From the NCBI GenBank assembly GCA_913064945.1, contig CAJYAN010000002.1, positions 62,001 to 126,000 of the forward strand: DNA of 64,000 nucleotides, given 5' to 3'. Both the position numbers and the translations under genes were made by a program. Below the pieces are notes generated by a model. The model had not been told where the DNA came from. It did no database searches and saw nothing but the letters and a program-made list of their open reading frames with translations. Below, in pieces: positions 41,762 to 44,640 of the stretch. How positions within the stretch are numbered: the stretch's first letter is position 1; each line of letters begins with the position of its first letter. The stretch comes from an uncultured Gammaproteobacteria bacterium (GTDB lineage Bacteria > Pseudomonadota > Gammaproteobacteria > UBA6429 > Thiohalophilaceae).

Positions 41762-43270
41762 ATGTGTGGCATTATTGGCATTCTTGCAAATTCTCCGGTA
41801 AACCAGTCTCTTTATGATGGTTTGACGGTGCTTCAACATCGTGGTCAGGATGCCGCCGGTATTATGACCAGCGATGGCGAGCGACTCTTTTTGCGTAAGG
41901 CCAATGGTCTGGTGCGTGATGTCTTTCATACTCGTCATATGTTGCGCCTGCAGGGCAACATGGGCATTGGGCATGTCCGTTATCCTACGGCCGGTTGTTT
42001 TTCGACGGCAGAGGCTCAGCCTTTCTATGTCAACTCACCCTTTGGAATTGCCCTGGCGCATAATGGCAATTTGACCAATGCCGACGAGCTTAAACGCGAC
42101 CTCTTTGTCGAAGATCGTCGACACCTGAATACGGAGTCTGACTCTGAAATTCTGCTGAATGTCTTCGCTCACGAACTACAACGTTCGACTAATCTGAATC
42201 TTGAAGCCGATGATGTATTTACCGCGATTGGTGGTGTTCATCGACGCTGCCGCGGGGCCTATGCTGTGGTGGCGATGGTCCCCGGACGCGGCTTGATCGC
42301 TTTTCGTGATCCGAATGGGATTCGTCCCCTGGTGCTTGGTGAGCGCCAGTCCGAACAGGGCAAGGAGTACATGGTGGCGTCAGAGAGTGTCGCCGTTGAT
42401 GCCCTGGGTTATGAACTGGTCCGGGATATTGCCCCTGGAGAGGCCGTGTTTATTAATCACCAGGGAGAGTTATTCTCAAAAATATGTAGCGATTCTGCCA
42501 AGCTGTCGCCGTGTATTTTTGAGTATGTCTATTTTGCCCGGCCTGACTCCGTCATGAATGGTATTTCAATTTACCAGTCGCGCATGCGTATGGGGCAGTA
42601 TCTGGCAGAAAAAATCCTACGTGTCTATCCTGAACATGATATCGACGTGGTCCTGCCGATTCCGGACACCAGTCGTACGGCAGCGCTACAGTTGTCCTAT
42701 ACCCTGGACATCAAATATAGCGAGGGTTTTATCAAAAATCGTTACATTGGTAGAACCTTTATTATGCCGGGGCAGAAACAGCGTAAAAAATCGGTGCGCC
42801 AGAAGTTGAATCCGATTGAAAGTGAGTTTGCCGGTTTGAATGTCCTGCTGGTGGATGATTCTATAGTCAGGGGCACGACGTCACAGCAAATCATTCAAAT
42901 GGCGCGAGAGTCTGGTGCCAATAAAGTTTATTTCGCCTCGGCTGCACCGCCGGTACGTCATCCCAATGTCTATGGTATCGATATGCCTTCGGCCAATGAA
43001 TTGATTGGTTTTGGCCGTGATGACAAGGCCATTGCTAGAGAAATTGGTGCCGACTGGCTGATCTATCAGGATCTGTCTGACCTGGTTCGCTCCGTGCAGG
43101 AAAGTAGTGAAGAGCTGTTACAGTTTGATACTTCGGTTTTTAATGGTGAGTATGTGACAGGAGATATTGACGATCTTTATTTAAAGCATCTGGAGACGAG
43201 GCGTAATGACAAGGCCAGAAAGAAACTCAATGCCGATGATGAAGTCATGGAGTTACACAATAATTACTAG
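41762..43270 (+). CDS. purF: Amidophosphoribosyltransferase
   Basis: 502 residues. The mature enzyme begins at the nucleophile Cys2 (MCGIIGIL), as in E. coli PurF, without a long propeptide. Glutaminase motifs: [20 protein letters not shown] and AHNGNLTNA. The PRPP site is [18 protein letters not shown]. It makes phosphoribosylamine, the first step of purine synthesis. Confidence 0.97.
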
Positions 43271-43275
43271 TGCGG

Positions 43276-43304
43276 TTGACAAGTTATCACTGTTCACCTA
43301 ATCT
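43276..43304 (+). promoter_or_regulatory. Sigma-70 promoter of metZ
   Basis: TTGACA (43276-43281), 17-base spacer, TAATCT (43299-43304). It begins six bases after the purF stop. A start near 43311 would place the first RNA base right at the riboswitch aptamer. Confidence 0.85.
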
Positions 43305-43310
43305 TTAGTT

Positions 43311-43366
43311 ACGCGCCGATTTGAGTTCACAGCTTGCGGGCGCATAATAAATTCAGCTAAAGCGGC
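43311..43366 (+). ncRNA. SAM-II riboswitch aptamer (SAM_alpha)
   Basis: The layout matches SAM-II: helix P1 GCGCC (43313-43317) with GGCGC (43339-43343), loop beginning GATTTGAG right after the first strand, GCTTGC before the second, then A/T-rich ATAATAAATTC and the conserved GCTAAAG (43356-43362) that forms the pseudoknot and the SAM site. SAM-II was described mainly in alphaproteobacteria in front of Met genes. Here it stands in front of metZ. Identification is from motif memory, not a covariance search. Confidence 0.82.
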
Positions 43367-43410
43367 GGTGATAAACCTGCTTTGGCGATTGCTGATGCGG
43401 GTTTTTTTTT
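43356..43410 (+). terminator. Riboswitch expression platform: antiterminator/terminator
   Basis: Two exclusive hairpins. Antiterminator: GCTAAAGC (43356-43363, part of the aptamer) with GCTTTGGC (43379-43386), eight pairs including one G-U. Terminator: AAACCTGC (43373-43380) with GCGGGTTT (43397-43404), eight pairs including one G-U, followed by T up to 43410. SAM binding would hold GCTAAAG, free the terminator and switch metZ off. Confidence 0.75.
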
Positions 43411-43452
43411 GCCTACATCACCATGCCCTGATTTGAGTAGAAGGAGAAAAGC

Positions 43453-44640
43453 ATGACAAATGATAATAACGACTGGGCACAGGCGACTCAGGCGATTCGA
43501 GCTGGACAGGTGCGAACGGCGGAAGGGGAGCATGCCGAGCCAATCTTTCTTACCTCAAGTTATGTCTATTCCTCTGCCGCCGAGGCCGCCGCTCGCTTTA
43601 GTGGCCAGGAGCCTGGCAATATTTATTCACGCTTTACCAATCCGACGGTGAGAACTTTTGAGGAACGTCTGGCAATCCTGGAGGGTGGCGAATCCTGCGT
43701 CGCGACGTCCTCTGGTATGTCTGCCATCTTAAGTACCTGCCTGGCATTATTAAAGCAGGGTGATCATATTGTTTCTTCGCGCGCCATATTTGGTTCAACG
43801 GTTATTCTGTTTAATAAGTACCTTAGTCGTTCTGGTATTGAGACCAGTTATGTCGCGCAGAGCAATTTACTGGAATGGGAAAAAGCTATAAAACCTAATA
43901 CCCGGCTGTTATTTTTGGAGTCACCATCAAATCCGTTAACCGAGATTGCCGACATTAAAGCTCTGGCTGCACTGGCGCATGCGAATGATTGTTTGTTGGT
44001 CGTCGATAACTGCTTCTGTACCCCGGCCTTACAAAAACCCCTCGCCCTGGGGGCTGATATTGTGATTCATTCGGCAACTAAATATCTCGATGGCCAGGGT
44101 CGTTGTCTGGGGGGCGCTGTGGTAGGGGATAAAAAGAACGTTGGCGAAGAGGTCTTTGGTTTTTTGCGAACGGCGGGGCCGAGCATGAGTCCGTTTAATG
44201 CCTGGGTCTTTTTGAAGGGCCTCGAAACCTTGCATATTCGTATGAAGGCGCACTGTGAAAATGCTACCAGTCTGGCGGAGTACCTCGAGGCTCACCCGGC
44301 GGTAACCAGAGTTTACTATCCTGGCCTGATATCACACCCCCAACACGCGCTGGCAAAACAACAACAATCCGGTTTTGGAGGTATTGTCTCCTTTGAGGTG
44401 CAGGGCGGTAAAGAAGCGGCCTGGAACGTGGTGGATAGTACCCGACTGCTATCCATTACGGCAAATCTTGGTGATACCAGGTCGACCATTACGCACCCCG
44501 CATCAACGACACATGGTCGACTGTCAGCGGAAGAGCGTCAGGCCGCCGGTATTACCGATGGTTTTTTACGTGTTGCCGTGGGCCTCGAAGATATTGTCGA
44601 CATTAAAATGGATTTGGCGCGAGGTCTGGATCGTTGTTAG
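43453..44640 (+). CDS. metZ: O-succinylhomoserine sulfhydrylase
   Basis: 395 residues. PLP enzyme of the Cys/Met metabolism group. Motifs: IFLTSSYVYSSAAEAAARF, YSRFTNPTV, SSGMSAI, ESPSNP, VVDNCFCTPALQKPLALG, the PLP lysine in HSATKYLDGQGRCLGG and SITANLGDTRSTITHP. It forms homocysteine directly from O-succinylhomoserine and sulfide. AAGGAG precedes the ATG by eight bases. It is controlled by the SAM-II riboswitch. Its 3' end overlaps the Nudix gene by four bases. Confidence 0.94.
   Translation: MTNDNNDWAQATQAIRAGQVRTAEGEHAEPIFLTSSYVYSSAAEAAARFSGQEPGNIYSRFTNPTVRTFEERLAILEGGESCVATSSGMSAILSTCLALLKQGDHIVSSRAIFGSTVILFNKYLSRSGIETSYVAQSNLLEWEKAIKPNTRLLFLESPSNPLTEIADIKALAALAHANDCLLVVDNCFCTPALQKPLALGADIVIHSATKYLDGQGRCLGGAVVGDKKNVGEEVFGFLRTAGPSMSPFNAWVFLKGLETLHIRMKAHCENATSLAEYLEAHPAVTRVYYPGLISHPQHALAKQQQSGFGGIVSFEVQGGKEAAWNVVDSTRLLSITANLGDTRSTITHPASTTHGRLSAEERQAAGITDGFLRVAVGLEDIVDIKMDLARGLDRC

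Follow-up and report, generated by a model that had tools for sequence, protein, structure and literature searches.

SAM-II (SAM_alpha; RF00521) was described by Corbino et al. 2005 as an element of alphaproteobacteria and, in a few cases, of other proteobacterial lineages, and that study noted near-consensus promoters a few nucleotides 5′ of the P1 stem as well as putative intrinsic terminators in many of the leaders (PMC1273637). Gammaproteobacteria were among the SAM-II hosts listed by Barrick & Breaker 2007, who singled SAM-II out as the class with the most frequent link to terminators among alpha- and betaproteobacteria (PMC2258182). In Sinorhizobium meliloti, Scheuer et al. 2022 reported a SAM-II element before metZ, together with an sRNA of ~100 nt and a terminator predicted to be induced by SAM (PMC9373788). 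Leyn et al. 2014 described as novel a 'metXZ' RNA element of betaproteobacteria, in which a pseudoknot and a terminator precede metX/metZ, and found SAM_alpha in two alphaproteobacterial orders only (PMC4239095), so the spread of SAM-II in uncultured gammaproteobacteria may be underappreciated. Here we analyze a leader in the window, a 64,000-nucleotide stretch of DNA from an uncultured gammaproteobacterium, and conclude with high confidence that it is a SAM-II riboswitch that ends transcription early and thereby represses metZ.

Results

The purF-metZ gap contains a SAM-II aptamer

In the gap between purF and metZ, a promoter is followed by a SAM-II aptamer, then by a terminator hairpin with nine T, and last by a Shine-Dalgarno sequence, all on the plus strand. 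The upstream gene, given for context only, is the open reading frame of purF (amidophosphoribosyltransferase; 41762-43270, plus strand; TIGR01134, 524 bits), which ends just 5′ of the promoter. The downstream open reading frame is metZ (43453-44640, plus strand), encoding a 395-aa O-succinylhomoserine sulfhydrylase that matches NF006003 with 704 bits (cut-off 522) and TIGR01325 with 579 bits, both above cut-off. The metZ Shine-Dalgarno sequence, AAGGAG at 43441-43446, lies ~30 nt past the T-tract and outside the switch.

The original prediction had identified the leader as SAM-II and named the SAM_alpha (RF00521) covariance model as the way to check it. This search returned a significant match of 34.4 bits at 43303-43381 on the plus strand, covering the full model (positions 1-79), with an E-value of 1.5e-6 on a 191-nt stretch and 6.0e-6 across the whole 3.2-Mb genome; the core aptamer spans ~43311-43365. 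The runner-up in the genome reached 18.6 bits within the metH coding sequence, and we took it and all lower matches as chance, which leaves 43303-43381 as the sole credible SAM-II element of this genome. Since the score is 1.6 bits short of the Rfam gathering score of 36, a default Rfam scan of the window gave no match.

To the extent that it can be read from the letters, the aptamer has the parts of SAM-II. The conserved core letters GATTTG, GCTTGC, AATAAA, and GCTAAA are all present, and the element lies in the leader of a methionine gene, metZ, as SAM-II elements do. The P1 stem (43313-43343) pairs GCGCC at 43313-43317 with GGCGC at 43339-43343 over 5 bp, and the P2 pseudoknot (43332-43363) would pair the P1-loop strand GCTTGC at 43332-43337 with GCTAAAGC at 43356-43363. 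The outermost P1 pair in the window is a C-A mismatch, which counts against the aptamer.

We gathered 122 related elements, 93 of which precede metZ, while the rest mostly run into metK (N-terminus LFTSESVSEGHPDK) or an apparent metF (SFEFFPP), as judged from reading frames; two regex matches (L067 at 4037 and L073) were excluded as they lie in coding DNA. The five core P1 pairs form in 112-118 of 121 related elements, and the next outer pair covaries among these 121 (A-T, C-G, T-A, T-G, G-C). For P2, comparison of the sequences gave four invariant inner pairs (118/118 elements) and two outer pairs that form in 97/118 and 77/118 elements.

A promoter-like pair precedes the aptamer

A consensus promoter had been proposed immediately before the aptamer, and this held for the −35 element but not for the −10. 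The promoter at 43276-43304 (plus strand) combines a perfect −35 (TTGACA, 43276-43281) and a 17-nt spacer with a −10 (TAATCT, 43299-43304) that matches at 3/6 positions, namely the three that are most conserved. At the same spot, 78/122 relatives have promoter-like pairs with at least 9/12 matches, as against ~3% in shuffles, and the spacer is 17 nt in 57 of those 78. A sigma-70 scanner did not list the site at 43276-43304, because TAATCT has only 3/6 matches, and listed two weaker sites within the aptamer instead.

Predicted terminator and antiterminator helices are mutually exclusive

The intrinsic terminator (43373-43410, plus strand) pairs AAACCTGC at 43373-43380 with GCGGGTTT at 43397-43404; its inner stem is TTGGC/GCTGA, and the pairing of 43376-43380 with 43397-43401 is followed by nine T at 43402-43410. 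A terminator scanner did not list this metZ-leader hairpin because the hairpin loop exceeds the scanner limit of 8 nt. A T-tract together with a GC-rich stem of 5 bp or more was found in 100/122 relatives, and the stem shows compensatory changes (CCTGC/GCGGG, CCTAC/GTAGG, CCACC/GGTGG).

The alternative pairing that was said to exclude this hairpin was recovered as well: GCTAAAGC at 43356-43363 is predicted to form 8 bp with GCTTTGGC at 43379-43386, inside the terminator hairpin with its nine T, giving an antiterminator helix that spans 43356-43386 on the plus strand. Predicted folds and conservation show that antiterminator and terminator are mutually exclusive and that the antiterminator competes with the ligand-bound fold. 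In stepwise folding, the antiterminator had a probability of ~1.0 for transcripts ending at 43386-43394 and still 0.86-0.99 for ends up to 43400, and the terminator took over from 43404 (0.93-0.96). When P1 was forced and both P2 strands were blocked in silico, a mimic of the bound state, the terminator was the minimum. For the full-length free RNA, the terminator fold came to −31.5 kcal/mol and the forced antiterminator fold to −28.5 kcal/mol; since the free minimum is thus the terminator by 3 kcal/mol, the ON state must depend on folding kinetics, a dependence that is common among such switches.

A full 8/8 complement of the 3′ P2 strand was found downstream in 60/122 elements compared with 1.8% of shuffles, and after removal of near-duplicates in 52/110 elements compared with 3.1% of shuffles. 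This 8-nt complement is not due to chance. The complement of GCTAAANN is kept downstream across the 122 elements, and where the P2 strand varies the complement sometimes changes with it (GCTAAACG/CGTTTGGC in three Solimonas elements, and GCTAAAGA/TCTTTGGC). Column statistics at the variable P2-strand positions were weaker (103 vs 97 expected, and 72 vs 63.5 expected, the latter for antiterminator pairing in 72/111 elements at variable position 8). Because GCTAAA itself is invariant, the antiterminator partner is mostly conserved and not strongly covarying, and with the column statistics weaker, the case for the antiterminator is carried mainly by the conserved complement, a CTTTRG motif, which lies inside the terminator hairpin in 76/77 elements that have both.

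SAM-II matches in the same GTDB class

To place the window element, we surveyed 369 genomes, one per species, of the same GTDB class as the window, with an RF00521 cut-off of E ≤ 0.01. Matches were found in 136/369 genomes, a figure that is not purely gammaproteobacterial because the GTDB class may include betaproteobacteria, and only 31 genomes had a match above the gathering score; most SAM-II switches of this class thus go unreported at the Rfam default threshold. Within the family to which the window belongs, a search by DNA similarity alone was enough to find the aptamer in most of the genomes covered, as a rule together with the terminator. The same layout was seen at named gammaproteobacterial metZ loci, including those of Sulfuriflexus, Solimonas, and Cocleimonas, and the best relatives of the window MetZ are nearly all gammaproteobacterial.

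Genes other than metZ also follow SAM-II elements. The SAM synthetase gene metK lies directly 3′ of SAM-II, in most cases with a terminator, at 13 loci (L018, L031, L037, L143, L146, L147, L149, L153, L156, L158, L159, L169, and L187), and relatives with this SAM-II-metK arrangement include members of the window's own family. By reading frame, SAM-II lies 5′ of an apparent metF in L164 and L183 and 5′ of an apparent MetN-like ABC transporter ATPase gene in L161. Tandem SAM-II elements, of which 44 cases have already been published (PMC9481103), were seen in L020, L029, L181, L182, and L184, where a terminator-type copy is followed by a second copy with no clear T-tract.

RF02424 is probably a SAM-II leader filed on the wrong strand

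The Burkholderia 'sRNA' family RF02424 (Bp2_287) is filed as an opposite-strand sRNA, and its reverse complement holds the SAM-II core 5′ of metZ. The class survey gave RF02424 matches in 64 genomes, and 20/20 of the weaker loci fetched there had a SAM-II core on the opposite strand. A phylum-wide survey gave three loci above the RF02424 cut-off, with 204, 157, and 108 bits (L199:1501-1673, L200:1501-1677, and L201:1501-1703), each antisense to a SAM-II core that lies directly 5′ of a metZ homologue with 57-58% identity to the window MetZ. RF00521 was not listed at these three loci at E ≤ 0.1, which makes them a diverged form of SAM-II by that model. At some weaker RF02424 matches outside this group (L203, L205-L207), no SAM-II core was found by pattern; the L203 match sits among tRNA genes, and these weaker matches are probably chance. 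With an opposite-strand SAM-II core at all three above-cut-off loci and at the 20 loci fetched in the class survey, RF02424 looks strand-inverted, and comparison of these sequences suggests that it is probably the SAM-II metZ leader.

Discussion

A terminator/antiterminator switch that turns metZ off with SAM in a gammaproteobacterial host had been predicted, and the aptamer match, the folds, and the conservation support this identification. The window carries the aptamer match and the parts of such a switch, the parts are conserved, and the two pairings exclude each other; from these we infer that SAM binds, that control runs in the OFF direction, and that transcription starts just 5′ of P1. 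At low SAM, the free 3′ P2 strand GCUAAAGC would capture the emerging GCUUUGGC to form the antiterminator, which would occupy the inner stem, along with the two uppermost pairs of the terminator stem, and so let the polymerase continue into metZ. Once SAM is bound, the P1/P2 pseudoknot would hold GCUAAAGC, the terminator hairpin would form ahead of nine U, and transcription would stop ~100 nt from the start.

The main alternative accepts the aptamer but takes the hairpin for a constitutive attenuator, with SAM acting chiefly through mRNA stability or at some other level. In its favor, the terminator is the full-length minimum without any ligand, and S. meliloti offers a partial precedent in metA and metZ, as its SAM-II mRNAs are also stabilized under high SAM (PMC9373788). 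However, a SAM-independent terminator would not need a complement of the P2 strand, and such a complement is far commoner than in shuffles and lies within the terminator in nearly every relative that has both; in addition, the metZ Shine-Dalgarno sequence is outside the switch. We consider a constitutive attenuator improbable.

The two remaining readings concern the RNA itself, and we give each almost no weight. A functional RNA on the minus strand, of the Bp2_287 (RF02424) type, would account for the minus-strand RF02424 match in the window (43393-43317; 18.8 bits, E 0.018), but the plus-strand RF00521 match is far stronger (34.4 bits), the promoter, the T-tract terminator, and metZ are all plus-oriented, and at the fetched RF02424 loci the SAM-II core itself is on the other strand; we therefore rejected it. 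A SAM-II-like aptamer with a changed ligand would fit a score slightly below the Rfam gathering cut-off, but the four core motifs are intact and common to relatives scoring up to 48 bits, and metZ is a standard SAM-II target. The SAM-repressed metZ terminator switch is thus the reading that we keep.

The window element, which goes unannotated under the Rfam default cut-off, supports regulation of metZ in this genome. Taken together, the observations make it reasonably probable, in our judgment, that terminator-type SAM-II is a main methionine control in several uncultured gammaproteobacterial lineages, with a shared antiterminator of ancestral origin in which the complement of the invariant P2 strand is copied, and with additional control of metK/metF, and that RF02424, on the wrong strand, and perhaps the betaproteobacterial 'metXZ element' (PMC4239095) are unrecognized forms of it. 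For its part, the 'metXZ' element may be a diverged SAM-II.

Comparison with known systems

Like SAM-II/SAM_alpha (RF00521) as first described (PMC1273637), the window element has P1 and a P2 pseudoknot, the core sequence, a promoter just before P1, an intrinsic terminator placed after P2 and ahead of the gene, and a methionine-synthesis target; it differs in scoring below the gathering threshold and in its CAGCTTGC / GCTAAAGCG form, which it shares with gammaproteobacterial relatives. SAM-II long loop (RF01726) and SAM-V have the same pseudoknot plan. We rejected RF01726, which gave 12.7 bits (E 6.2) against a gathering score of 44, and SAM-V is reported to control translation (PMC6061858), unlike the terminator-type switch of the window.

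Another close system is the S. meliloti metZ SAM-II (PMC9373788), which likewise lies before metZ with predicted SAM-induced rho-independent termination and yields a terminated sRNA of ~100 nt, but in an alphaproteobacterial host. The original prediction had considered both the host and the terminator platform noteworthy, since SAM-II was known mainly from alphaproteobacteria and usually close to the ribosome site. Neither point carries over: gammaproteobacterial SAM-II was already reported in 2007, in the same study that named SAM-II as the class most often terminator-linked among alpha- and betaproteobacteria (PMC2258182), and a metZ terminator switch is not new given that of S. meliloti. 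As the host group, promoter, terminator, and metZ target are described in PMC1273637, PMC2258182, and PMC9373788, the window element is a known kind of element, a clear gammaproteobacterial example of a switch type whose host group and terminator arrangement had been described before. The result for RF02424, an sRNA family that probably records such a riboswitch with its strand inverted, is more unusual than the metZ switch itself.
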